From Amycolatopsis sp. WQ 127309 (lineage in GTDB: Bacteria > Actinomycetota > Actinomycetes > Mycobacteriales > Pseudonocardiaceae), in the NCBI RefSeq assembly GCF_023023025.1, contig NZ_CP095481.1, positions 8,755,001 through 8,819,000 on the forward strand: DNA of 64,000 bases, given 5' to 3'. Each line of letters starts with the position of its first letter. The stretch's first letter is position 1. Positions 3,378-15,228 of the stretch are shown here, piece after piece. The notes under the pieces were generated by a model that was given only the letters and a program-made list of their open reading frames with translations, was not told where the DNA came from and did no database searches. A program made the position numbers and the translations under genes.

Positions 3378-5096
3378 TCAGTGGGCGAACGCGGTCAGGA
3401 AGCGGTCGCGGAAGGAGTCCATCTTCCAGACCGGCGCCTGCGCCGCCGGGTGCAGGCCGTCGGTCCAGCCCCAGCCGGAGATCCGGTCCAGCACCTTCGG
3501 GTCCTTGGCCACGATCGTGATCGGCACGTCGTGGACCGCGCCCTGCGGGGTGACGACCGGCGGCTGGTGGTCACCGAGGAACACCAGCACCAGGTTGTCG
3601 TCGCCGTAGTGCTGCACGAACGAGATCAGCGTCTTCAGCGAGTAGTCGGTGGCGTCGCGGTAGGCGTCGCGGATCTTCGCCGGGTCCTTCCAGACCGACT
3701 CGGGTGCCTCCCCCGCGCCCGGCTGCGGCGCGAAGACCGAGCCGTCGCCGACCTGGTTCCAGTCGACCAGCCAGGGCCGCGGCGACCAGGGCGCGTGGCT
3801 GGAGACGAGGTCCACCTCCGCCATCACCGGCTTCTGGGCCGACTTCGCCAGCTCGTTGCGCTGCAGCATCGAGAACGTGTACTGGTCCGGCATCGTGGCG
3901 TAGGCGAACCCGGGGCCCTGGTAGCCGATGTTGCGGAAGTCGTAGTAGGCGTCCGGGTGGTAGAACCGCTGGCCCTCCGGCCAGTCCTTCGTGTGCGCGG
4001 GCACGTCCCAGACGGTCTTCCAGCCCGCCTTCTGGAACGCGCCGCCGAGGGTCAGCCGGTCGCTGTCGAGGAGGTTGTTGTAGCGCTGCTGGTTGTCGAT
4101 CCACATGCCGGACTCGACGGTCGAGTGCGCGAGCCAGCTGCCGCCGCCGAACGTCGAGGACGACAGGAACGCGCTCTTCGCGCCGATGCCGGCCGCCCGC
4201 AGCTGCGCCGTGCCGGCGTCGAGCGTCGCGCCGATCTTCGGCGCGAACTCCGGGTCGTCGAGCGCGACGCGGCCGTAGCTCTCCACGAACGTGAGCACCA
4301 CGTTCTTGCCGCGCAGCCCGGCCAGCAGCTGGTCACCGGGGGTGTTCCGGTACGCGTCGTCGGCGGCCAATTCGCTGAACGGCTGCTGTTCCCGCAGGTC
4401 CGTGCCGACCTGGCGCAGGTCGTCGTAGGCCAGGGCGGCGGCGCTCTGGGCCGCGATCGGCTGGCCCGGCGCGATCTCGACGCCGAACACCGAGCAGCCG
4501 ATCCAGATCACGCCGAGCACGGCCACCGCACGCGTCGCGCCGGTCCGCCTGCCGGCCGCGATCCGGGTGAGCCGCAGCATCGCGAGCACCATGAACACGA
4601 CGACGGCGATCGCGAGCACGACGGCGCCGGCCAGCACGGCGTAGGCGGCGGCGTCACCGATCTCCCCGGCGAGGAACTCGAGACCGGCGTTGAAGAAGCT
4701 CCAGTCGTAGACCGGGTCGAACGGCTTCTCGAGCGTCGCGTAGAAGCCGGTGTCGAGCGCCTTCATCACGACGAGCAGGCCCAGCACCAGCCCGACCAGC
4801 ACCGCGACGACCCGGCGCGCCCGCGGCGGCAGGACCAGCACGAACGCGGCCACGATCAGGCCTTCCACCGGCACCCGGACCAGCGCTTCCGGCGCGAACG
4901 AGTTGAGGTCGTCCGGCGCGAGGAGCGCGAACAGCACCAGCAGCGCGGCCAGGACGGTGAGCACCACGCCCGCGACGGCGTGCCGCCGGGCGGGCCGGGG
5001 CAGCCCGAAGTCGGGCAGCGCCATCCCTGCCGTCACTCCGTCCCGAGTGCGGCGGCGGGCTCGCCGCGACAGCGGCAGACCGGTGGTTCCCATCAT
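3378..5096 (-). CDS. Membrane-anchored sulfatase/LtaS-like hydrolase-transferase
   Basis: A 572-residue integral membrane protein. The first about 210 residues hold four or five membrane helices. The rest is an alkaline-phosphatase-superfamily domain facing outward. Domain marks are NVVLTFVESYGR, a candidate nucleophile segment STFGGGSW, SSHAPW and VFLGDHQP, which correspond to the metal-binding and product-binding stretches of the LtaS/phosphoglycerol transferase family. Members transfer or hydrolyse phosphoglycerol or sulfate esters on envelope polymers. The actual substrate is unknown here. Start at ATG 5096 with GAGG seven bases upstream; a second ATG follows at once. It is monocistronic. 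Confidence 0.8.
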   Translation of the reverse strand: MMGTTGLPLSRRARRRTRDGVTAGMALPDFGLPRPARRHAVAGVVLTVLAALLVLFALLAPDDLNSFAPEALVRVPVEGLIVAAFVLVLPPRARRVVAVLVGLVLGLLVVMKALDTGFYATLEKPFDPVYDWSFFNAGLEFLAGEIGDAAAYAVLAGAVVLAIAVVVFMVLAMLRLTRIAAGRRTGATRAVAVLGVIWIGCSVFGVEIAPGQPIAAQSAAALAYDDLRQVGTDLREQQPFSELAADDAYRNTPGDQLLAGLRGKNVVLTFVESYGRVALDDPEFAPKIGATLDAGTAQLRAAGIGAKSAFLSSSTFGGGSWLAHSTVESGMWIDNQQRYNNLLDSDRLTLGGAFQKAGWKTVWDVPAHTKDWPEGQRFYHPDAYYDFRNIGYQGPGFAYATMPDQYTFSMLQRNELAKSAQKPVMAEVDLVSSHAPWSPRPWLVDWNQVGDGSVFAPQPGAGEAPESVWKDPAKIRDAYRDATDYSLKTLISFVQHYGDDNLVLVFLGDHQPPVVTPQGAVHDVPITIVAKDPKVLDRISGWGWTDGLHPAAQAPVWKMDSFRDRFLTAFAH

Positions 5097-5525
5097 GGCG
5101 CGGCCTCACATCACAGTTCACGGGGCGATCGCCGGGCCCGTGCGGCGGGGACGGCGATCCTCACCGCATATACGGACAACGACGGCGCGCGGTTCACGCC
5201 GTCGAGCCGCGGCGCCCGGAGGTCCCCCGTTCCGGGACGATCCGGACGATCGGCGCCGGTTCGGGGCGGCGTCCGCCCACCCGGGTCCCGGTCGTCCCTT
5301 TCGCGCAGCGGCACCTTTCCGGATTCCCGTCGATCGGGCGGATCCGAAAGGAAACGCCGATACCCGATGTCCGTGGTCTCAAACCCCGTCCTGCTTCTTT
5401 CACCCACGAAAGAGCCGCGATCCCCCCTACCGGGGAAGGAATGCGGCCGTTCGGTTGCGGGCCGGTCGGCCGGGTGTTTTGCTCGGGAAGACCGAAGCCC
5501 CGCTATTCCGAATGGAGCCCTACCG
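5097..5525. other. Intergenic region upstream of antitoxin-family gene
   Basis: About 430 bases of divergent control region between the sulfatase-like gene and the small antitoxin-family gene. Local GC is lower than in the genes. I find no persuasive gene, repeat or hairpin in it. A long plus-strand open frame that runs through is an unselected high-GC frame. Confidence 0.6.
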
Positions 5526-5720
5526 ATGAGTCTTTTCGACAAGGCGAAAGAGGCCCTGGGCAACAACCCCGACAAGGCCGACCAGGGTGTCGACAAGGCC
5601 GCCGAAGCCGCCAAGGGCCGGTTCGGCGAGCACGCCGACAAGATCGACCAGGGCTCGGACAAGGTGAAGGACTTCCTGCACAAGCAGGGCGGCGGCCAGC
5701 AGGACGCACCGCCGCAGTGA
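5526..5720 (+). CDS. Rv0909/MT0933-type antitoxin-family small protein
   Basis: A 64-residue, highly charged, probably all-helical protein: MSLFDKAKEAL, then repeated DKADQGVDKAAE-like segments and a Gly/Gln tail. The sequence matches the actinobacterial MT0933 antitoxin family pattern (DKAKE..NPDK.DQ.VDK). Start at ATG 5526 with GGAGCCC upstream. No toxin gene is adjacent: the next gene is a VanZ-RDD membrane protein. It could be an orphan antitoxin or a CsbD-like stress protein, as many members have no tested partner. A hairpin follows 18 bases after the stop. Confidence 0.8.
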   Translation: MSLFDKAKEALGNNPDKADQGVDKAAEAAKGRFGEHADKIDQGSDKVKDFLHKQGGGQQDAPPQ

Positions 5721-5737
5721 CGCGACGCCGGTGACTG

Positions 5738-5782
5738 CCCAGCCGACCGGGCGAAGCACGCTTCGACCGGGCCCCGGCTGGG
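5738..5782 (+). terminator. Two-part hairpin after the antitoxin-family gene
   Basis: Outer arms CCCAGCCG (5738-5745) and CGGCTGGG (5775-5782) pair perfectly. An inner CGAAGC/GCTTCG pair closes the loop. There is no T-run, as usual in high-GC actinomycetes. It separates the small gene from the VanZ-RDD gene 14 bases further on. Confidence 0.6.
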
Positions 5783-5795
5783 TACCACCGGCTCC

Positions 5796-6962
5796 GTGGT
5801 CGCCACCTACCTCGTCCCCGTCCGGACCGCCCTCTACCTGTTCCCGCTCATCGCGCTGGTCGTCATGCTGCCGGCGGCGTTCGTCAGCTACCGCCGCCGC
5901 GGCCGCGCGGGCGGGTGGACGACGGTCGTGTTCTACACCTTCGTCTTCTACCTCTTGGCGATCGCGACGCAGACGATCCTGCCGCTGCCCGACAACGCGA
6001 ACTTCTGCGCCGGCAGCAGCTACGCCAGCTCGCCCCAGTTGCGGCCGTTCTACTTCGTCGAAGTCGTGTCGCAACGCGCCCGCGGCCACTGGAGCCCGAG
6101 CGCGATCCTGCACAACCCCGCTGTCTGGACCACCGCGCTCAACGTCGCGATGCTGGTCCCGTTCGGCCTCTTCCTGCGCTACGCCCAGCGCATGCGCGCG
6201 GTGCCGACGATCCTGGCCGGGTTCGGCCTCTCCCTCCTGTTCGAGCTGACGCAGCTCACCGGGCTGTGGTTCGTCTACCCGTGCCCGTACCGCTTGTTCA
6301 GCGTCGACGACCTCATCCTCAACACCGCCGGCGCCGCGCTCGGCTGGCTGATCGCCGGCCCGCTCGGCCGGGTGCTGCCCGCGCTGGAGCCGGACCACGA
6401 CCGCCGCCGCTACGCCACGAAGGTCACCTTCACCCGGCGGCTGTTCGCGCTGGCCACCGACCTGCTCGGGTTCGCCGTGCTGCTCGGGTTCCTGTTCGGC
6501 CTGCTCACCCTGTTCGGCGAGGACATGCGCCACCGCGACACGCCGGTCGTCATCCTCGCGCTCGTGTGGTTCGTGGTGCTGCCCGCGGTGACCGGGTCGA
6601 CGCCGGGCAAGCGGGCGATGCTGCTGAAGGTCGCGCGGCGCAGCGGCCGCCGGGCCGGACCGATCTCGCTGCTGGTCCGCAACGGCGTCCTGCTGTCCCC
6701 GCTCTGGCTCACCTGGCTGCTGCTGGACCTGGACCACTGGGACCTCGGCGAACACCCCGAACAGCTGCTGCTGCCCCTCGCCCTGGCGGCGTCGGCCTTC
6801 GTCGTGCTGGTGTGGACACCACTGGCCGTCCTGCTCGACGACGAGCACCGCGCACCCTACGAACGGCTGACCCGGACCGTGAACGTCGCGATCGTGCCCC
6901 CACCTGCGATCACCCCGGCCGAACCGGCGCCCGCGCCCGCCCGTGCCAAGGAAGTCCTTTGA
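5796..6962 (+). CDS. VanZ-RDD domain membrane protein
   Basis: A 388-residue polytopic membrane protein. Residues 1-200 show five hydrophobic helices with the VanZ-like signature (LPLPDN, NVAMLVPFGLFLR, ELTQLTG, SVDDLILNTAGAALGW). Residues 205-360 form an RDD domain (LFALATDLLGFAVLL, VTGSTPGKRAMLLKV, with Arg and Asp in the helices). The VanZ/RDD pairing is frequent in actinobacteria. VanZ itself gives low-level teicoplanin resistance by an unknown mechanism, so a role in the envelope is likely but untested. The GTG start at 5796 has only a weak ribosome site. Confidence 0.85.
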   Translation: MVATYLVPVRTALYLFPLIALVVMLPAAFVSYRRRGRAGGWTTVVFYTFVFYLLAIATQTILPLPDNANFCAGSSYASSPQLRPFYFVEVVSQRARGHWSPSAILHNPAVWTTALNVAMLVPFGLFLRYAQRMRAVPTILAGFGLSLLFELTQLTGLWFVYPCPYRLFSVDDLILNTAGAALGWLIAGPLGRVLPALEPDHDRRRYATKVTFTRRLFALATDLLGFAVLLGFLFGLLTLFGEDMRHRDTPVVILALVWFVVLPAVTGSTPGKRAMLLKVARRSGRRAGPISLLVRNGVLLSPLWLTWLLLDLDHWDLGEHPEQLLLPLALAASAFVVLVWTPLAVLLDDEHRAPYERLTRTVNVAIVPPPAITPAEPAPAPARAKEVL

Positions 6963-7030
6963 GGACGGCACAACCCACTGCGCTGCCCGCGTCAGGCGCC
7001 GCTGGTAGATTTGCGTGAACGGGTTGAACC

Positions 7031-7044
7031 GACAGCCCGCTGTC
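7031..7044. promoter_or_regulatory. Inverted repeat GACAGC-CC-GCTGTC in the partner-switching operon leader
   Basis: A perfect 6-bp inverted repeat with a 2-base spacer, 35 bases before the first STAS start. It lies in the only promoter-sized gap in front of the five-gene operon, so it is a candidate operator or leader hairpin. I could not assign the promoter elements with confidence. Confidence 0.4.
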
Positions 7045-7078
7045 AGACGAAGCCCGTCCCCTCCAGGAGCTACAACCC

Positions 7079-7465
7079 ATGAGCACCGACGCAACGCGGC
7101 CTCGGCAGCGCTCCTCCGGTGAGGGCTGGTCGCTGGCCAAGCACGACGCCGGAGACGCGACCGTCTACGTCCTGCGCGGCGAGTTCGACCTGGCCGTCTC
7201 GGTGAAACTCGAGGACCTGCTGCCCGCCGACCCCGGCACCGGCCGGATCGTGCTGGACATGACCGAGGTCACCTACTGCGACTCCAGCTGCCTGCAGGTG
7301 CTGCTGCGGCTGGGCAACCGGCTGCGCGACGCGGGCGGCCGCTTCGCCATCGCGACCACCGTCCCCGCCGTCGTCCGGCCGGTCGAGCTGCTGGGCCTCG
7401 GCGCGGTCATGCCGCTGCACCCGACCGTCGACGCGGCGCGCGCTTCCTGGGGTGAGGGCGCATGA
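7079..7465 (+). CDS. STAS-domain anti-sigma factor antagonist (first of operon)
   Basis: A 128-residue SpoIIAA/RsbV-type protein. In partner switching the unphosphorylated antagonist binds the kinase/anti-sigma factor and frees its target; the kinase inactivates it by serine phosphorylation. The STAS fold runs from about residue 28 to 120 with the phosphorylation loop VTYCDSSCLQVLL. Both serines are kept, but the usual Gly after DSS is Cys. AGGAG precedes ATG 7079. The stop overlaps the start of the kinase gene by four bases (ATGA), so the two are translationally coupled. The N-terminal 20 residues are basic and probably disordered. Confidence 0.9.
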   Translation: MSTDATRPRQRSSGEGWSLAKHDAGDATVYVLRGEFDLAVSVKLEDLLPADPGTGRIVLDMTEVTYCDSSCLQVLLRLGNRLRDAGGRFAIATTVPAVVRPVELLGLGAVMPLHPTVDAARASWGEGA

Positions 7466-7947
7466 CGACATCCGGCACCCGTGTGGGCGAGCCCGGTTCG
7501 GGGCATGAAGAAGGGGATGACATCCCCTCGGGGCCCGGCACGGTGAAGGAGGCGGACGTGAACCTGCGCTTCGACAGGCACGAAATCGGCATCACGGCCG
7601 ACCTGTCCGAGCTGGCGAAGGTCCGCAGCTGGGTCCGAACCGTGCTCGGCGGCTTCCCGGCGAGCGTGGTCACCACCGCGGTCATGGTGGTGGACGAGCT
7701 GGCCTCCAACGCCCTGCGCCACGGCCACGCGCCCTACCACGTGCGCCTGCTGCCCAGCGCGGCCAAGGTGCGCATCGAGGTCGACGACGGCAGCGGCGAG
7801 ACGGCCCGGCGCCGGACGCCGTCCGACCAGGGCGGCCGCGGGCTGCTGCTGGTCGAACGCTGTGCGGCCGCGTGGGGCCAGCTCGGCCGGCCCACCGGCA
7901 AGACCCTGTGGGCCGAGCTGGCGACGGACCCGGGGACCCATGGCTGA
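7462..7947 (+). CDS. RsbW/SpoIIAB-like ATP-binding anti-sigma factor kinase
   Basis: A 161-residue GHKL-fold serine kinase. The N-box is DELASNALRHG, the G1 box VDDGS and the G2 box GGRGLLLVE. These are the ATP-binding elements of RsbW-like kinases, which phosphorylate STAS antagonists and sequester a sigma factor or another output protein. The first 45 residues (Gly/Ser/Asp-rich) extend beyond the family core, and an internal start could be used. It overlaps the genes on both sides (4 and 8 bases). No sigma factor gene lies in the operon, so the output partner must be encoded elsewhere. Confidence 0.9.
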   Translation: MTTSGTRVGEPGSGHEEGDDIPSGPGTVKEADVNLRFDRHEIGITADLSELAKVRSWVRTVLGGFPASVVTTAVMVVDELASNALRHGHAPYHVRLLPSAAKVRIEVDDGSGETARRRTPSDQGGRGLLLVERCAAAWGQLGRPTGKTLWAELATDPGTHG

Positions 7948-9562
7948 ACGCGTGGACACGGCCCCCGTCACCCCGCTCACCGGCGACCGGGGCTGGGACG
8001 CCGCGCCCGCCGCGGCCATCGTCGCGGACCGCGCCGGCGTGGTCCGGGCCCTGAACGAGGCCGCCCGGCTGCTCTTCCCCGGCGTCGCCGCCGGCCGTCC
8101 CCTGGCCGGCACGGTCGCCGGCTGGCTGGCCGAGGCCCACGACCGGCGCACGAGCGAGATCACCCGCGGCGAAGCCGGTGCCCGGTTCCTGGCCGCGCAC
8201 CCGGTCCCGCACGGCGACGCCGTGACGTGGTGGCTGGTCGACGAGACCGACATCCGCACCGCCCAGGACGCGCTGGCCCACGAGCAGGAGCGCACGGCGT
8301 TCCTCAGCGAGGCCTCCGCCGCGCTGCTGGGCTCGCTGAACCTCGAACGCTGCATGGAGGTCGCCGCCCGGCTCGCCGCGGAGCACCTGGCCGACGCCGC
8401 GCTCGTGCTGGCGCCCGCGACGACCGGCGCGTTCCCCGCCGTCACCTGCGTGCGCGGCGGCGAGCCGTCGCGTGGCCGGCTGGAGGTCGACCCGGACGAG
8501 CTGCCCGGGCTCGGCGAGGCCCTCCAGGGCTTCCCGCCGGTGCCCTCGCGCTGGCTCGACCCGGACGCCGCGCCCCGCTGGGTGCTGCCGGCCGACTTCG
8601 GGCCGGTCGGCTCGATCGTCGTGACGCCGCTGCCCGGCCACGGCGTGCCCGCCGGCGCGCTGGTCCTGCTGCGCAGCGGCGACCGGGCGTCGTTCAGCGA
8701 GCAGGAAGAGCTCTTCGCCCGCCTCTTCGCGGCGCGCGCGGGGGCGGCGATGTCGGCGGCGCGGGTGTTCGCGCTGCAGGCGTCCATCACCGACACGCTG
8801 ATGCGGGAGCTGCTCCCGCCGACCCTCGAGCAGGCCGGCGGGGTCGAGTTCGCCGGCCGCTACCGCCCGGCGCTCGACGGCGAGCGGATCGGCGGCGACT
8901 TCTACGACGTGCACCCGGCGGTCGACGGCGACGCGTCGCTGGCCGTGCTCGGCGACGTCTGCGGCAAGGGCCTCGACGCCGCCGTGCTGACCGGCAAGAT
9001 CCGCACGACGCTGCGGGCGCTGCTGCCGATGGCGGGCGACCACCAGCGGCTGCTCGGGCAGCTGAACGCCACGCTCGCCGACCGCCGCGACGCCCGCTTC
9101 GTCACGCTGGTGCTGGCGTCCGCGCGGCGCGAGGGCAACACGGTCCGGCTGCGCGTCACCTGCGCCGGCCACCCGCCGCCCCTGATCGTCCGGGCGGACG
9201 GGCGGGTCGAGGAGGCCGAGACCCACGGCAGCCTGATCGGCGTCCTGCCCGAGATCGAGTCGACGAGCGCGGACATCACGCTCGACCCCGGCGAGACCTG
9301 CCTGATGTTCACCGACGGCATCGTCGAGGCCAAGGGCGGGCCGCTCGGGGACGCGATGTTCGGCGAGGACCGGCTCCGGCAGGTGCTGACCGAGTGCGCG
9401 AACATGCCGGCCGACGCGGTCGTCGAGCGGGTGCACATGCTCGCGGCGCAGTGGATCGGCCGCGGCAACCACGACGACATGGCGGTCCTCGCGATCACCG
9501 CCCCGCGCGGGCAGCACCTCGCCGCGGTCGGCGGGCACGGCCGCGGGAGGTACACCGCGTGA
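7940..9562 (+). CDS. PAS-GAF-SpoIIE (PP2C) serine phosphatase
   Basis: A 540-residue cytosolic phosphatase of the RsbU/RsbP class that should dephosphorylate STAS antagonists. Order: a PAS-like segment (about 12-100, AIVADRAGVVRALNEAA), a GAF-like segment (about 115-285) and the SpoIIE/PP2C domain (about 305-525). Metal-binding Asp motifs are visible in RIGGDFYDV, LGDVCGKGLDAA, MFTDGIVEAKG and GRGNHDDMAVL. ATG 7940 was chosen because it lies inside the end of the kinase gene and fits the coupled arrangement; the open frame continues upstream as an artefact. Two sensor domains plus the following B12 protein mean that this phosphatase is the likely signal entry point. Confidence 0.92.
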   Translation: MAERVDTAPVTPLTGDRGWDAAPAAAIVADRAGVVRALNEAARLLFPGVAAGRPLAGTVAGWLAEAHDRRTSEITRGEAGARFLAAHPVPHGDAVTWWLVDETDIRTAQDALAHEQERTAFLSEASAALLGSLNLERCMEVAARLAAEHLADAALVLAPATTGAFPAVTCVRGGEPSRGRLEVDPDELPGLGEALQGFPPVPSRWLDPDAAPRWVLPADFGPVGSIVVTPLPGHGVPAGALVLLRSGDRASFSEQEELFARLFAARAGAAMSAARVFALQASITDTLMRELLPPTLEQAGGVEFAGRYRPALDGERIGGDFYDVHPAVDGDASLAVLGDVCGKGLDAAVLTGKIRTTLRALLPMAGDHQRLLGQLNATLADRRDARFVTLVLASARREGNTVRLRVTCAGHPPPLIVRADGRVEEAETHGSLIGVLPEIESTSADITLDPGETCLMFTDGIVEAKGGPLGDAMFGEDRLRQVLTECANMPADAVVERVHMLAAQWIGRGNHDDMAVLAITAPRGQHLAAVGGHGRGRYTA

Positions 9563-10635
9563 GCACCTCGACCCGGACCGGCCCGGCCGGGATCGCCGAG
9601 CACGCCGAGCTGCTCTGGGCCGCCGTCACCACCGGCGACGAGTACACCGCGGGCGACGTCGTGGTCCAGGCGCTGGGCCAGGGCCTGGAGCCGGAGAGCG
9701 TGCTGCTCGACGTGATCGGCGCGGTCCAGCGCAAGGTCGGCCGGGAGTGGGCGGCCAACCGGCTGACCGTGGCCCAGGAACACGCGGCGACGGCGATCAA
9801 CGATCGTGTCATCGCGAGCTTCGGGTACGTCCTGCAACGCCCCGAGCCGCACCTCGGCCGCGTCACCGTCGCCTGCGTGGACGGCGAGTGGCACGCGATG
9901 CCCGCCCGGCTGCTCGCCGAGGTCCTGCGGCTGCGCGGGTTCCACGTCGACTACCTGGGCGCGCAGGTCCCGGCACCGCACCTGGTCGCCCACCTGCACC
10001 GCACCGGGCCGGACGCGGTCGCCCTGTCCAGCTCCATCGCCACCCGGCTGCCGACGGCGCACGCGACGATCACGGCGTGCCAGGCGGCGGCGACCCCGGT
10101 GATCGCCGGGGGCGCCGCGTTCGGCCCGGACGGCCGGTACGCGCGGCTGCTCGGCGCCGAGGCGTGGGCCCCGGACGCGCGCACGGCCGCCGACAAACTG
10201 GCCGAGCCGCTCCCCCGGCCGCAGATCGGCCACCAGCCCCTCGACGACCTGCCGCACCTGGCCGACCAGGAGTACACGCTGGTCACGCGCAGCTCGGGCA
10301 ACCTCGTGAGGGCGGTGATCGCCGGGCTGGAAGAGCGGATCCCGGCCATGCGGTCCTACACGGACCTGCAGCGTCAGCACACCGCCGAGGACATCGCGCA
10401 CATCGTCGACTTCCTCGCGACCGCCCTCTACGTCGGCGACAGCGAGCTGTTCACCGGGTTCCTGACCTGGACGGCGGACATCCTCACCGCGCGCGGCGTC
10501 CCGGCCCTCTCGCTGGTACCCGCCCTCGACCTGCTCGAGGCGGAGCTCCGCGACTTCCCCCGGGCCACCGAGCTGCTCGGCACCGCGCACAAGCACTTGG
10601 CGGCCCGAGCCGCCGGATCGGGGCCGTCCGCATGA
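9559..10635 (+). CDS. CarH-like cobalamin-binding sensor without DNA-binding domain
   Basis: A 358-residue soluble protein. Residues 12-90 match the helical cap of CarH/LitR photoreceptors and carry the W-x9-EH motif exactly (W64, E74, H75). In CarH these residues cover the upper, light-sensitive face of adenosylcobalamin. Residues 100-215 are a B12-binding Rossmann domain with GEWH (H112, lower-ligand position), LRLRGFHVDYLG and the SSSIATRL and GGAAFG loops. There is no MerR-type helix-turn-helix. Residues about 225-355 form an extra all-helical domain of unknown type. The GTG start overlaps the phosphatase stop (GTGA), and the end overlaps the next STAS start (ATGA). I infer that it feeds a light or cobalamin signal to the kinase/phosphatase pair. 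Confidence 0.85.
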   Translation: MSTSTRTGPAGIAEHAELLWAAVTTGDEYTAGDVVVQALGQGLEPESVLLDVIGAVQRKVGREWAANRLTVAQEHAATAINDRVIASFGYVLQRPEPHLGRVTVACVDGEWHAMPARLLAEVLRLRGFHVDYLGAQVPAPHLVAHLHRTGPDAVALSSSIATRLPTAHATITACQAAATPVIAGGAAFGPDGRYARLLGAEAWAPDARTAADKLAEPLPRPQIGHQPLDDLPHLADQEYTLVTRSSGNLVRAVIAGLEERIPAMRSYTDLQRQHTAEDIAHIVDFLATALYVGDSELFTGFLTWTADILTARGVPALSLVPALDLLEAELRDFPRATELLGTAHKHLAARAAGSGPSA

Positions 10636-10985
10636 ACAACGCGTTGACCTGCACCTGGACCTCGCCACGGCCGGACACGGCCCGCGTCGTGGTCATCGGC
10701 GACCTGGAGTACACGACGGCCGCGCTGCTGCCGAAGCTGATCGGCGACCGGCTGGCGGCCGCACCCGGCGTCCGGGACGTGCGGCTCGACTGCGAGGGCA
10801 TCGGCTTCTGCGACTCCTCCGGGCTCTCGGCGCTGCTGCGCGTCCACACCGTCGTCACGGACGCGGGCCGTCGGCTGCACCTGGACAACCGCCGGCCGGC
10901 CCTCGACCGGCTGCTCGCGCTGACCGGCACCTTCGCCCACCTGACCGGCGAGGCCCCGATCTCCCGCGCCCGGGCCGACTCCTAG
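10632..10985 (+). CDS. STAS-domain anti-sigma factor antagonist (last of operon)
   Basis: A 117-residue STAS protein with the canonical phosphorylation loop IGFCDSSGLSALL, unlike the DSSC variant in the first gene of the operon. Two antagonists with one kinase suggest either a second binding partner or scaffolding of the B12 sensor, as RsbS/RsbR do in Bacillus. The N-terminal part (about 1-25) is strand-like and fits the STAS start. It overlaps the sensor gene by four bases. Its TAG stop shares the palindrome CTAG with the stop of the convergent MMPL gene. Confidence 0.88.
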   Translation: MNNALTCTWTSPRPDTARVVVIGDLEYTTAALLPKLIGDRLAAAPGVRDVRLDCEGIGFCDSSGLSALLRVHTVVTDAGRRLHLDNRRPALDRLLALTGTFAHLTGEAPISRARADS

Positions 10986-13048
10986 CTCTCGCTTCGGGCC
11001 AGCTTCGACGGCCACCAGATGCGGCGGCCGACGTCCACGGTCAGCGCCGGGACCAGCAGCGACCGCACCAGGAACGTGTCCAGCAGGACGCCGAACGCGA
11101 CGATGAACGCGATCTGGGCCAGGAACAGGATCGGGATCACCGACAGCGCGGAGAACGTCGCGGCCAGCACGACGCCGGCCGACGTGATCACGCCGCCGGT
11201 CAGCGACAACCCGCGTAGCGTGCCGGCGCGGGTGCCCCGGGTCAGTGCTTCCTCGCGGACGCGCGTCATCAGGAAGATGTTGTAGTCGATCCCCAGCGCC
11301 ACCAGGAACACGAACCCGAACAACGGCACCACCGGGTCCGCGCCCGGGAAACCGAAGATGTGGTTGAACACCAGCGCCGACACGCCCATCGTCGCGGCGA
11401 ACGACAGCACCACCGTCGCGACCAGCAGCAGCGGCGCGAGCAGGGACCGCAGCAGCAGGGCCAGCACGAGGAAGATCACCAGCAGCACGATCGGGATGAT
11501 CAGCTCCCGGTCGTGCACGGACGTCTGCTGCGTGTCGAGCTGGATCGCCGTCGGGCCGCCGACCTTGGCGGCCGCGCCGGGCACCGCGTGCACGGCGTCG
11601 CGCAGCCGGCCGACGGTCGCGACGGCGGCTTCGGAGTCCGCCGGGTCGTTCAGCACGGACAGGATCTGCACCCGGCCGCCGACGACCTTCGGCTGCCCGT
11701 CGGGGCCGGGCAGCGGGAGCGACTGGGCCACACCGTCCACTTTGGACGCGGCGAGCACGGCGGGCAGCGCGGCGGCGTCGGCGATCGTGATCGCGGGCGC
11801 GCCGAGGCCGCCCGGGAAGTGCCGGCCGAGGATGTCCTGGCCGGTTCCGGACTCGACCTGGGTGAGGAAGACGTCCGACTGCGCGGTGCCGGACGCCTTG
11901 AGCTGCGGCAGGAACGCGACGCCGATGCCGAGCACGAGCGCCGTCACCACCCAGACCGTGCGCGGCCGCTTGCCGACCAGGCCGGCCACCCGGCCCCAGA
12001 TCCCGGCGGTCTCCGGGTGCGGCGAGCCGAGCGCGGGCTTGAACGGCCAGAACGCGCCGCGGCCGCACAGCGCGAGCACCGCGGGCAGGAACGTCGTCGA
12101 CGCCAGCAGCGCGGCGCCGATGCCGATCGCGGCGACCGGGCCGAGACCCTTGTTGGAGTTCAGGTCGCTGAACAGCAGGCACAGCACCCCGAGCACGACG
12201 GTGCCCGCCGACGCGGCGATCGGTTCGAGCGTGGCGCGCCAGGCGATCCGCAGCGCGTCGAAGCGGCTCGGGGTGTCGCGCAGCTGCTCGCGGAACCGCG
12301 CGACCGTCAGCAGGGCGTAGTCGGTCGCCGCGCCGAACACGAGGATCGAGAGGATGCCCTGGCTCTGGCCGTTGAGCGCGAGGATGTCGTTCTTCGCCAG
12401 CAGGTAGACGACGAGGCTCGCGAGCCCGAGCGCGAACACCGCCGAGAGCAGCACCAGGAACGGCAGCAGCGGGCTGCGGTAGACGACGATCAGGATCAGT
12501 GCGACCACACCGCCGGCGACGAGCAGCAGGATGCCGTCGATGCCACCGAACGCCGTGACCAGGTCGGCGATCTGCCCGGCCGGGCCGGTGACCAGCACGG
12601 TCAGGCCGTCCGGCGCACCGGCGAGCTGGGCGCGGACCTCCTTGACGACGTCGGCGGGGTTGCCGTCGGCGAGGATCGGCACGGCCAGCTGCACGGCCTG
12701 GTCGTCCCGCGGCGCGGGCTGCGGCTGGCCGAGCGGGCCGACGACGCCGGGCACGGTGCTCAGCTGCCGGGCCTTGTCCGCGAGGAACCGCCGGTCCTCG
12801 CTGGTCAGGCCGCTCGTGCGTTCGGCGACGACGGTGGCGGGCAGCACCTGGCGCGGGGTGAACGCCTTCTGCTCGTCGGACACCTCGGTGGCTTCGGCCG
12901 ACCGGGGCAGGAAGGCGGCGTTGTCGTTCTTCGCGACTTCGCTGAGCTTCCCGGCGAACGGCCCGCCGAACCCGCCGATCGCGAGCCAGCCGATCACCAG
13001 GAGGGCCGGGATCAGCCAGCGAAGACGGCGTGGGGCGGTCTTGTTCAT
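10982..13048 (-). CDS. MMPL-family RND transporter
   Basis: A 688-residue inner-membrane exporter with the MmpL/RND layout: helix 1 (about 10-30), an extracytoplasmic loop, five to six helices (about 165-370), a second loop and a second set of helices (about 520-680). ATDYALLTVARFREQL and the mirror GIDYNIFLMTRVREE are the conserved helix motifs that carry the proton-relay residues of the family. MMPL proteins export lipids, siderophores or drugs, driven by the proton gradient. ATG 13048 was chosen over an upstream start because the extra 21 residues lack a ribosome site and cross the operator. It is divergent from a MarR gene that probably represses it. The substrate is unknown. Confidence 0.9.
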   Translation of the reverse strand: MNKTAPRRLRWLIPALLVIGWLAIGGFGGPFAGKLSEVAKNDNAAFLPRSAEATEVSDEQKAFTPRQVLPATVVAERTSGLTSEDRRFLADKARQLSTVPGVVGPLGQPQPAPRDDQAVQLAVPILADGNPADVVKEVRAQLAGAPDGLTVLVTGPAGQIADLVTAFGGIDGILLLVAGGVVALILIVVYRSPLLPFLVLLSAVFALGLASLVVYLLAKNDILALNGQSQGILSILVFGAATDYALLTVARFREQLRDTPSRFDALRIAWRATLEPIAASAGTVVLGVLCLLFSDLNSNKGLGPVAAIGIGAALLASTTFLPAVLALCGRGAFWPFKPALGSPHPETAGIWGRVAGLVGKRPRTVWVVTALVLGIGVAFLPQLKASGTAQSDVFLTQVESGTGQDILGRHFPGGLGAPAITIADAAALPAVLAASKVDGVAQSLPLPGPDGQPKVVGGRVQILSVLNDPADSEAAVATVGRLRDAVHAVPGAAAKVGGPTAIQLDTQQTSVHDRELIIPIVLLVIFLVLALLLRSLLAPLLLVATVVLSFAATMGVSALVFNHIFGFPGADPVVPLFGFVFLVALGIDYNIFLMTRVREEALTRGTRAGTLRGLSLTGGVITSAGVVLAATFSALSVIPILFLAQIAFIVAFGVLLDTFLVRSLLVPALTVDVGRRIWWPSKLARSES

Positions 13049-13085
13049 GGTCGCTAAAGTCCCTTCGAGCGCGAACACGCCCAAT

Positions 13086-13103
13086 TGTTCAGCAGGCTGA
13101 ACA
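13086..13103. promoter_or_regulatory. MarR-type operator TGTTCAGC-AG-GCTGAACA
   Basis: A perfect 8-bp inverted repeat with a 2-base spacer in the 80-base gap between the divergent MMPL and MarR genes. The size and position (26 bases before the MarR start, 38 before the MMPL start) fit an operator through which the MarR protein represses both promoters. Confidence 0.75.
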
Positions 13104-13128
13104 TTCTGCACGACGACCGGGAGTGACG

Positions 13129-13566
13129 GTGAGCACAGCCCCCGAACCGGACCTGAGCACGTGGCCGACCGGCCGGCTCCTGGCCGTGGCCGCGCGGCTG
13201 GTCGAGCAGCGCTGGGTCGCCGTGCTGGCCGGCATGGGCCTCACCCACGCGGGGCTGATCGCGTTGCACACCCTGCGCGAGGGCCCGCTCCCCCAGCGGG
13301 CGCTGGCCCAGCGCTGCCAGGTGACCGACCAGACGATGAGCCGCACGCTGGACCGGCTCGCCAAGGCCGGCTTCGTCACCCGCACGCCGGACCCGGCCGA
13401 CGCCCGCCGCCACCTGACGCGGCTGACCACGCGCGGCCGCACGGTCCACGAACGCGCGGTGCGCGCCGAACGCGAAGACCCCGCCCTGCTCGGCGGACTC
13501 GGCGACGACGACGCCTTCCGCGCGCGGTTGCTCTCTTTGATCGGTGGTCTGTCGGCGGGCGATTGA
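13129..13566 (+). CDS. MarR-family transcriptional regulator of the MMPL exporter
   Basis: A 145-residue winged-helix regulator. The recognition part is GPLPQRALAQRCQVTDQTMSRT followed by the wing LDRLAKAGFVTRTPDPADARR, which is the conserved DxRxx wing of MarR proteins. GTG 13129 is preferred because GGGAG precedes it by five bases. The gene is divergent from the exporter with a palindromic operator between them, so the standard model is repression of the exporter that is relieved by a small ligand, often the exporter's substrate. Confidence 0.9.
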   Translation: MSTAPEPDLSTWPTGRLLAVAARLVEQRWVAVLAGMGLTHAGLIALHTLREGPLPQRALAQRCQVTDQTMSRTLDRLAKAGFVTRTPDPADARRHLTRLTTRGRTVHERAVRAEREDPALLGGLGDDDAFRARLLSLIGGLSAGD

Positions 13567-13596
13567 GATCAACCGGGGCTGGGTAACTGAGCAGGC

Positions 13597-13719
13597 ATGT
13601 GGATCGCGGTGAGCACCCCAGTCGCCCTGTTGATCGCAACCGTGCTGATGGAGCGGTTCGAGCGACGATGCACCCTCGTGCCCACCGCGAAAGCCGACCG
13701 ACCACCGGTCGGCAACTGA
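13597..13719 (+). CDS. Small single-pass membrane protein (40 aa)
   Basis: A short open frame that reads MWIAVSTPVALLIATVLME, then RFERRCTLVP and a polar end. It has one membrane helix followed by a basic stop-transfer segment, and a modest ribosome site (GAGCAGG). Similar tiny helix-plus-ERFE proteins are common hypothetical genes in actinobacteria. It begins 30 bases after the MarR stop and ends before a strong terminator, which supports transcription. No function can be assigned. Confidence 0.55.
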   Translation: MWIAVSTPVALLIATVLMERFERRCTLVPTAKADRPPVGN

Positions 13720-13736
13720 CCTGGATTTCTTTGCGG

Positions 13737-13764
13737 CCTGGCACTTTCCCGCGAAAGTGCCAGG
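13737..13764. terminator. Perfect 12-bp hairpin terminator
   Basis: CCTGGCACTTTC and its exact complement flank a four-base loop (CCGC), followed by CCTTT. It ends the MarR/small-protein transcript. Confidence 0.8.
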
Positions 13765-13875
13765 CCTTTCGCGTTCACCCTTTCGAGTGATCCACACCTC
13801 TTCGAGAACCTCCGCTCCTCCCCTCGCGACTCACGGGGTAGATCCGGCGACACCGGGTCAAGGGAGGAGATCACC

Positions 13876-14313
13876 ATGCGCGGCACCACGAAGCCGAAGC
13901 GGACACTGCTCGGCCTGGCCCTCGCGGCCGGCCTGATCACGGCCACGAGCATCGGGATCGCCGGCGGGGCGTCGGCCGATTCCGGGACCACGGAGGGGAA
14001 AGCCATGACCGAAGCACACCAGCGGCCGCCGAAGGGGGCGCGCGCCACCGTTCAGGTGAGCCCGAACCCCACGACCAGGCGCGGCGAAGAAGTGACGATC
14101 ACCGGAAACTGCGGCGGCGGCACGGGCTTGAAGTCCGTACTCGGCGGCTTCCCCGAGCACCCGGTCCTGGAGAACATCCGGATCCTGAAATCCGGACCGG
14201 ACGAATTCGAGGCGAAAGCCACACTGTCCGAACACATCGGCAACGGCGTAGGCCCGGTTTTCGTCGACTGCGGCGGCGAAGCAGGCGTGACGTTGCTGGT
14301 CACGCACGTCTGA
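13876..14313 (+). CDS. Secreted protein of unknown function with a beta-sandwich-like mature part
   Basis: A 145-residue exported protein: signal peptide of about 35 residues (KRTLLGLALAAGLITATS, ending near ASA), a short polar linker and a roughly 90-residue domain with alternating beta pattern and two cysteines (GNCGGGTG and VDCGGE) likely in a disulfide. The pattern VQVSPNPTTRRGEEVTITGNC is the style of small Ig-like or neocarzinostatin-like cell-surface domains, but I do not recognise the family. AGGGAGGAGA gives a strong ribosome site. It is a single gene ended by a hairpin. Confidence 0.7.
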   Translation: MRGTTKPKRTLLGLALAAGLITATSIGIAGGASADSGTTEGKAMTEAHQRPPKGARATVQVSPNPTTRRGEEVTITGNCGGGTGLKSVLGGFPEHPVLENIRILKSGPDEFEAKATLSEHIGNGVGPVFVDCGGEAGVTLLVTHV

Positions 14314-14321
14314 GTGAACGG

Positions 14322-14350
14322 CCCGCCCGCCGGTGCTGCCGGTGGGCGGG
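14322..14350. terminator. GC-rich hairpin terminator between convergent genes
   Basis: CCCGCCC and CCGG (left) pair with CCGG and GGGCGGG (right) with one G-T pair and a short loop. It lies between the stop of the secreted protein and the stop of the spermidine synthase gene and can act on both transcripts. Confidence 0.65.
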
Positions 14351-14364
14351 TCCTTCTCCAGCAA

Positions 14365-15228
14365 TCAGTGGCGGTCGTCGCGCCGCAGCGAAAACGGGGG
14401 TGTCGCGCCCGCCAGCAACGCTTCCGCGTCCACCGTCACGGCCTTGCTCCCCCGCTCACCGAACCGCCGCGCCACCACGGCACCCGGCTCGTCGACGACG
14501 TCCGCACGCCCGGAAAGGAATGCCCATTCGTGCTCGTCGGAACCGAAGTACAGCACGGTGCCGAACACCTCGCGAAACCGTCGCCACGATGCGAGCAGCG
14601 TCTCGTTGCGCCACAGCGTCGGGCAGCCCGCCTGGCAGGTCACCACGCCGCCGGGGGCCAGCAGCCGGGCGCAGCGGCCGAGGAAGTCCGTGCCGTACAA
14701 GCGGTTGTGCTGCGCGTCCGGGTCGGTGTTCTCGTCCGGCAGGTCGATCACGACCACGTCGTAGGTGTCACCGCGCTCCTCCGCGGCGGCCAGGAACGCC
14801 CAGCCGTCCGCAAAAGACAGCCGGACCGGGCCGGACCCGCGCTCGGCTTCGGCGAGGTCGGCCGTCGTGTAGCCGTAGGGCAGGTGCTCGGCGCAGGCGC
14901 GGACGGCCTGCTCGTCGATGTCGACGTGGTCGACGAGCACGGCGCCGGCGGCCAGTGCCAGCTCGCAGGCGACGCCTTCGCTGGAACCGATCACGAGCAC
15001 CCGGCGCACCTGGTCGGCGAGCAAGAGTGCGGGGACCATCAGCGCCTCGTGGTACAGCAGCTGGCTCGCCTCGGTGCTCTGGCGCTCGTTGTCGCAGAAC
15101 AGCGAAACGCCCTGCGCGGTGCGCCCGATCAGCACCTCCTGGTAGGCCGTGCGCGCGCTGAACACGACGTCGTCGACCTCCCAGACGCGGGTCAGGCCGG
15201 GGCCGAGTGGTTCGTGGATCGCGGGCAT
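14365..15228 (-). CDS. speE: Spermidine synthase-like aminopropyltransferase
   Basis: A 287-residue cytosolic enzyme that should transfer the aminopropyl group from decarboxylated S-adenosylmethionine to putrescine. The Rossmann fold has the nucleotide loop VLVIGSSEG (the family usually has GGGDG, so this is a variant), the acidic ribose ligand segment HVDIDEQAV and the substrate-gating D-x-x-D in VVVIDLPDE. The N-terminal beta domain (YQEVLIGRTAQGVSLFCDN) fits the family. It overlaps speD by one base (TGATG) and is third in an operon with ornithine decarboxylase and SpeD. That supports the function although the glycine loop is unusual; an altered amine acceptor is possible. Confidence 0.85.
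   Translation of the reverse strand: MPAIHEPLGPGLTRVWEVDDVVFSARTAYQEVLIGRTAQGVSLFCDNERQSTEASQLLYHEALMVPALLLADQVRRVLVIGSSEGVACELALAAGAVLVDHVDIDEQAVRACAEHLPYGYTTADLAEAERGSGPVRLSFADGWAFLAAAEERGDTYDVVVIDLPDENTDPDAQHNRLYGTDFLGRCARLLAPGGVVTCQAGCPTLWRNETLLASWRRFREVFGTVLYFGSDEHEWAFLSGRADVVDEPGAVVARRFGERGSKAVTVDAEALLAGATPPFSLRRDDRH

Follow-up and report, generated by a model that had tools for sequence, protein, structure and literature searches.

A predicted two-colour light sensor paired with a SpoIIE-type phosphatase in an Amycolatopsis partner-switching operon

Within a 64,000-nucleotide stretch of the genome of Amycolatopsis sp. WQ 127309, a soil-type actinobacterium (NZ_CP095481.1, positions 8,755,001 to 8,819,000; hereafter the window), five open reading frames (ORFs) run on the + strand from 7079 to 10985 in the order STAS, HATPase, SpoIIE-type phosphatase, B12 sensor and STAS. 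The product of the fourth is a photocobilin, predicted from its sequence to sense light through adenosylcobalamin (AdoCbl) and biliverdin. Gene content, family membership, pocket residues and a conserved pairing with the phosphatase gene are shown here, and the arrangement suggests a protein-phosphorylation switch that is set by light. In our best model, to which we assign a probability of about 0.7, the two-colour sensor would control the co-translated phosphatase and hence STAS phosphorylation. To our knowledge, light responses in actinobacteria have been little explained. If the model is true, light would control protein phosphorylation in many of these bacteria through a B12-bilin receptor, and the pair might find use as a red/green-gated phosphatase tool.

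A search of PDB sequences with the sensor matched SasPcob over residues 15-348 (8J2X, 7.2e-82; 8J2W, 7.6e-82) and AbPcob (8J2Y, 2e-40), and the first CarH-named entry (7.8e-11) matched nothing beyond the B12 part. Aligned identity with SasPcob is 157/328 (48%). All six key residues of SasPcob (Trp61, Glu71, His72, His108, Asp270 and Trp296) are matched, the equivalents being W63, E73, H74, H111, D277 and W303 in P0001 numbering, or one higher when the numbering includes the GTG start. In SasPcob, Asp270 and Trp296 contact biliverdin, and AbPcob, with His in place of the Asp, is reported to bind biliverdin poorly (PMC10979010). The window's protein thus has the W-x9-EH cap and the E/DxH axial-His motif of photocobilins as well as the biliverdin-pocket Asp and Trp. 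The C-terminal five-helix bilin globin that follows the Rossmann domain in photocobilins is likewise present by alignment to residue 348. This domain, formed by the last ~120 residues, has no Pfam match and was seen by alignment to 8J2W/8J2X; a confident AlphaFold2 model (mean predicted local distance difference test score 87.2) places helices at 236-352, as expected for a globin domain. The genome also encodes a source of each chromophore, with one heme oxygenase match (1.9e-52) for biliverdin and one cobalamin adenosyltransferase match (1.8e-59) for AdoCbl.

An initial annotation of this DNA had described the sensor as CarH-like. The residues it named, W64, E74, H75 and H112 with the GTG start counted, are as claimed, and the B12 module with its motifs stands, but the second, bilin-binding domain that makes the protein a photocobilin had been overlooked. 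A CarH-type photosensor that uses B12 alone is in our judgement very unlikely: the cap and ligand motifs are exact and the top NCBIfam match is indeed CarH, though at 54.5 bits, far under the cut-off of 400, and the SasPcob alignment takes in the globin domain and reaches residue 348, bilin-pocket Asp and Trp included. The annotation was also right that the protein lacks a helix-turn-helix, no such family being found by Pfam at E 0.1, and the N-terminal MerR-type helix-turn-helix of the CarH repressor is accordingly missing. We rejected membership of CarH/LitR on this absence and on the far better photocobilin match. Elsewhere in the same genome (L003 1075-2112, about 9131000 of C1) lies a protein with a MerR helix-turn-helix and B12-binding domain, whose cap motif reads by eye as W-x9-E-W, not E-H; it is CarH/LitR-like and may have lost light sensing.

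The partner genes have the features of an Rsb-type module: STAS proteins with a conserved Ser, an RsbW-like HATPase, and a PPM phosphatase with conserved Asp motifs. Pfam confirms the identities that had been given to all five genes, as it does not quite do for the domains ahead of the phosphatase's SpoIIE part. STAS protein 1 scores 56.2 bits against NCBIfam ant_ant_sig, over the cut-off of 53.45, and carries a phosphosite-like C-D-S-S at residues 67-70 in which Ser69 is conserved in 27/29 aligned rows, the window included. The corresponding C-D-S-S-G of STAS protein 2 occupies residues 60-64; among 117 aligned rows of downstream STAS proteins, again with the window counted, 115 keep its Ser62. 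The HATPase has the motifs DELASNALRHG and GGRGLLLV; its score against NCBIfam RsbA_anti_sig, 44.9 bits, is far under the cut-off of 210. The phosphatase retains GGDFYD (318), GDVCGKG (338), TDG (458) and HDD (511), as judged by conserved columns in an alignment of the window's enzyme with 161 partner phosphatases. Its initial labelling as PAS-GAF-SpoIIE is plausible in the first two parts, where GAF (7.9e-4) reaches 20.4 bits, just under the curated cut-off of 22.4, and PAS_4 reaches 15.3, well under 23.1. Among 46 aligned partner phosphatases, including that of the window, SpoIIE was detected at E 0.01 in 46, GAF (PF01590) in 27 and PAS (PF00989) in 3.

One feature of an Rsb-type module, a cognate SigB/F/G-type gene linked to the operon, is missing. 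None of the genome's 18 model matches for such sigma factors falls inside the window; four exceed the model cut-off, the nearest at C1:8841864, ~76 kb from the operon. A linked sigma factor was rejected as the operon's target, there being no SigB/F/G-type match in the window and few at other loci.

The pairing of sensor and phosphatase was surveyed in two sets of loci. In the first, the wider samples, the sensor matched in at least 26/80 genomes of the family and at least 65/394 of the class, the window's genome being counted in each; these are lower bounds because scored candidates were limited to 25 per genome in the family and 5 in the class. We took 100 stretches around matches other than the window's, omitting one 76-residue match (G293). 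Five stretches with partial matches only were dropped and two held two copies, giving 97 full-length photocobilins. The second set comprised 80 close named relatives, the best 80 of 459. The two sets are not summed because some organisms occur in both. To call neighbours we used profile models made from the window's proteins and their relatives, all members of the class, so that distant relatives may be missed.

A phosphatase gene lies directly upstream of the photocobilin gene (same strand, <0.9 kb) at 81/97 loci of the wider samples (28/32 in the family, 53/65 in the class) and at 80/80 of the close relatives. This linkage supports the initial proposal that a B12 photosensor gene without a helix-turn-helix is tied to a partner-switching operon, and the homologues are generally linked. 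At least one of the three partner types occurs within 5 kb at 85/97 and 80/80 loci. A HATPase gene is found within 5 kb at 27/97 and 39/80, counts that are rough because the HATPase model also matched a sensor histidine kinase in L203. The phosphatase and photocobilin genes share a 4-bp start/stop overlap in 60/81 pairs of the wider samples. It might be argued that the sensor merely hitchhikes with partner-switching genes, which are common, as the 17 SpoIIE genes above cut-off in this genome attest. With 17 such genes in 11.1 Mb, the expected chance of finding one directly upstream of a random gene is ~0.07%. The 81/97 direct pairings, overlapping genes and presence in both deep branches of the photocobilin tree make neighbourhood without function extremely unlikely.

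A different partner is also conceivable. The photocobilin may act on a STAS protein or on the HATPase, in a stressosome-like manner, and not on the phosphatase. A STAS gene directly follows the photocobilin gene at 49/97 loci of the wider samples and 67/80 of the close relatives, with a 4-bp overlap in 99/114 pairs of both sets, and the Bacillus stressosome is known to receive light input through YtvA (PMC4844311). Nevertheless, the phosphatase gene is retained more often (81/97) than the STAS gene (49/97), and at many loci no STAS gene was detected behind the phosphatase-photocobilin pair. Action on STAS or HATPase is, in our estimate, unlikely.

Fusions were considered as a possible proof of contact, but no photocobilin was fused in one ORF to SpoIIE, STAS or HATPase in 194 stretches (193 loci and the window slice). 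Pfam identified no common partner in 10 frames, some of them photocobilin frames themselves, at loci without an upstream phosphatase. In 10 frames behind photocobilins with no detected STAS gene, it returned four unrelated families and six blanks. Plasmids carry the pair as well: a search gave 17 records, of which 6 span 80% or more of the query, and of four loci inspected, three on Streptomyces plasmids are annotated by NCBI with a PP2C/SpoIIE phosphatase followed by a cobalamin-dependent protein, with STAS next in two.

Individual loci show variations. Tandem photocobilin genes stand between phosphatase and STAS genes at L150 8307-10410 and L152 8533-10636, a possible heterodimeric receptor. 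The phosphatase-linked row L171 8662-9636, with a single in-frame TGA and key residues that have degenerated, is possibly a decayed or frame-shifted gene. At L187 1086-4199, which lacks an upstream phosphatase gene, a KaiC-like ATPase gene directly follows the photocobilin gene. On mobilizable Streptomyces plasmids, L202 and L203 have phosphatase, photocobilin and STAS genes, each set followed by a MarR-type gene; the window also has a MarR-type gene. In L203 (1606-3045), a divergent STAS-HATPase-STAS set adjoins the photocobilin operon as an alternative arrangement of the same parts.

A quick 99-row tree, to which long-branch warnings attach, was used to examine the history of the pair, with the phosphatase link labelled within 2.2 kb. 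The link is present in both deep branches, in 18/23 and 66/75 labelled rows, and needs 6 changes on the tree against ~13 in shuffles. Photocobilin and phosphatase identities correlate over 81 pairs, with r 0.92 when the N-terminal part of the phosphatase is compared and 0.90 when its SpoIIE part is. Six genomes that each carry two phosphatase-linked loci were compared, and the nearest relatives of the two genes coincide at 10/12 loci, a single locus in G082 and another in G275 being the exceptions; G022, which also has two loci, was left out of this comparison. SasPcob groups with L111 and L112, where the photocobilin genes lie behind a phosphatase gene and before STAS and HATPase genes.

Residue conservation bears on what is sensed. 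Over 179 aligned sequences, Trp61, His72 and His108 are each kept in 178 and Glu71 in 179, and the biliverdin Asp is found in 149. The first deep branch has this Asp in 0/23 rows, with Val, Cys, Thr, Ala and others instead. The sensor could conceivably report AdoCbl supply or redox state and not light, the globin domain being merely structural. The dark state presupposes AdoCbl binding, one relative has an adenosylcobinamide amidohydrolase gene two genes upstream, and the branch without the Asp yet keeps the phosphatase link in most of its rows, all of which would suit such a role. The almost invariant light signature and the presence of both the biliverdin-pocket Asp and Trp in the window's protein argue for light as the input, and we find a supply or redox sensor distinctly unlikely.

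Several observations weigh against control of the phosphatase by the photocobilin, or limit how far it extends. A correlation of identities can arise from operon co-inheritance alone and by itself is no proof of contact. Sixteen of the 97 photocobilins have no phosphatase gene within 0.9 kb upstream, although two of these are second copies in tandem pairs and in one the upstream side runs off the contig. Across the phylum sample, the sensor matched in 20/296 genomes; 15 matches lay outside the class, and among the 8 that cover ~300 residues none had a phosphatase match in the stretches examined. Because 16/97 are unpaired and 0/8 are paired outside the class, other outputs exist in the photocobilin family as well. 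A relative on a Skermanella plasmid, a partial match, lacks a PP2C neighbour. SigB/F/G-type matches occur within 5 kb at just 2/80 close relatives and 3/97 wider-sample loci. Further, the S. syringae protein closest to the sensor is P0052 (71%) and not the crystallised SasPcob (48%). Finally, the trans effect of SasPcob reportedly had the reverse sign without biliverdin (PMC10979010), so the direction of an effect is not predictable.

We propose a model in which the photocobilin, co-translated with the upstream SpoIIE-type phosphatase, would be the detachable light sensor of that enzyme. In the dark, a photocobilin dimer would hold AdoCbl, with biliverdin in the globin domain. Green light acting via B12, or red light via biliverdin, would break the Co-C bond and change the oligomeric state. 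The chromophores, dark dimer and light monomer are carried over by analogy from SasPcob, which is reported to bind AdoCbl and biliverdin side by side, to lose the Co-C bond in green or red light, and to pass from dark dimer to monomer in light (PMC10979010). The sensor probably binds the N-terminal sensory region or linker helix of the phosphatase, such that light would alter dephosphorylation of the STAS proteins that the HATPase would phosphorylate, and the HATPase would then hold a different partner. Three elements are inferred: that the phosphatase is the direct target, in which direction the effect goes, and which sigma factor or other target lies downstream.

Regulation through the N-terminal region or linker comes from combining precedents for photocobilins and PPM phosphatases. 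Photocobilin domains alter diguanylate-cyclase activity, in trans too (PMC10979010). RsbU becomes active when RsbT orders a coiled-coil linker, and PPM phosphatases and diguanylate cyclases are described as having common linker control and exchangeable sensor parts (PMC12143880). RsbQ and RsbP, a neighbouring-gene pair, operate via a PAS domain (PMC3183031). It is tempting to extend the model across Actinomycetes, where the photocobilin-SpoIIE pair would be a conserved two-protein, green- and red-light-gated Ser/Thr phosphatase that sets STAS phosphorylation, with a free photocobilin in the role of RsbT or RsbQ and the branch lacking the Asp as a green-only version; we regard this generalisation as an even bet.

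Schneider's 2022 photoglobin paper reportedly discusses gene neighbourhoods. Photocobilins were published in 2024, when SasPcob was said to interact potentially with STAS, SpoIIE and PP2C-like proteins in Saccharothrix, on the basis of STRING and genome-neighbourhood networks, and a stress role was suggested, the function of standalone photocobilins being described as less clear (PMC10979010). The sensor type is therefore already known and the operon is not new in kind. Nor is it a new mode for a B12 photosensor to act otherwise than on DNA, as the initial annotation had proposed, since control of a diguanylate cyclase by photocobilins had already been shown (PMC10979010). Among the open-licence papers that our searches listed, this one alone joined photocobilins with STAS/SpoIIE, and no experiment on the link appeared. 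Within the reach of those searches, what is new is the five-gene operon as a whole, how often and in what position the phosphatase gene is paired with the photocobilin gene, the 4-bp overlap of the pair, its absence from 8 loci outside the class, and its retention in a branch without the Asp. A STRING hint thus becomes a conserved gene pair, and the link is directly testable because the survey supplies a named partner with frequencies and a class boundary.

The genome is a single 11.1-Mb contig, and the closest named relatives of the sensor are Amycolatopsis proteins of ~88% identity. Successive ORFs of the operon overlap by 4, 8, 4 and 4 bp, confirming the 4-8 bp initially described (Table 1). 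Its flanks differ in kind, with a VanZ-RDD gene on the 5' side and, on the 3' side, an MMPL gene on the opposite strand and next the MarR-type gene. An Rfam scan of 4000-15000 gave nothing at gathering scores.

Table 1. Coordinates of the operon and associated features, in window positions.
Feature	Position	Strand	Details
STAS protein 1, RsbV-like anti-anti-sigma type, 128 aa	7079..7465	+	Pfam STAS_2 3.6e-15, STAS 4.4e-14
Overlap STAS 1/HATPase	7462-7465	+	ATGA, 4 bp
RsbW-like HATPase, putative STAS kinase/anti-sigma, 161 aa	7462..7947	+	Pfam HATPase_c_2 2.8e-9
Overlap HATPase/phosphatase	7940-7947	+	8 bp
SpoIIE/PPM-type Ser/Thr phosphatase, 540 aa	7940..9562	+	Pfam SpoIIE 3e-42
Overlap phosphatase/photocobilin	9559-9562	+	GTGA, 4 bp
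Photocobilin, 358 aa, GTG start	9559..10635	+	PDB sequence search 8J2X/8J2W
Four-helix cap, B12-binding_2 (PF02607, 1.9e-13), residues 16-85	9607..9816	+	Trp codon 9748-9750, Glu-His codons 9778-9783
Rossmann B12-binding domain (PF02310, 2.3e-17), residues 99-200	9856..10161	+	Axial His codon 9892-9894
Predicted bilin-binding globin (photoglobin) domain	10267..10617	+	Asp codon 10390-10392 (= Asp270 SasPcob), Trp codon 10468-10470 (= Trp296)
Overlap photocobilin/STAS 2	10632-10635	+	ATGA, 4 bp
STAS protein 2, 117 aa	10632..10985	+	Pfam STAS_2 4.9e-12
MarR-type gene beyond operon	13030-13566		

Among known systems, the nearest are SasPcob (8J2W, 8J2X) and AbDPcob/AbPcob (8J2Y), which have the same order of four-helix cap, Rossmann B12 domain and C-terminal bilin globin (PMC10979010). 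SasPcob has the same six key residues as the window's sensor but is 48% identical, and AbDPcob differs in being fused to a diguanylate cyclase and in having His for the biliverdin Asp (PMC10979010). The window's photocobilin differs from both in its STAS-HATPase-SpoIIE-photocobilin-STAS operon. With CarH/LitR the sensor has in common the B12 module, with W-x9-EH and the axial His; it lacks their MerR helix-turn-helix and has an additional bilin globin domain and a predicted protein-protein output. The RsbT-RsbU and RsbQ-RsbP systems of the Bacillus subtilis sigma-B pathway resemble our proposal in that a separate activator controls a PPM phosphatase (PMC12143880, PMC3183031), and RsbQ is encoded next door to its target (PMC3183031), as the photocobilin here is to its proposed one. 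The proposed activator here is a light-sensing photocobilin, whereas RsbT and RsbQ are a switch kinase and an alpha/beta hydrolase. Unlike the sigma-B pathway, the window has no SigB/F/G-type gene. YtvA, like other LOV-STAS proteins, is a fusion that uses flavin and blue light, its sensor joined to STAS, whereas here a free-standing protein is predicted to use B12 and bilin. As proposed for the photocobilin, YtvA provides a light input to partner switching (PMC4844311).

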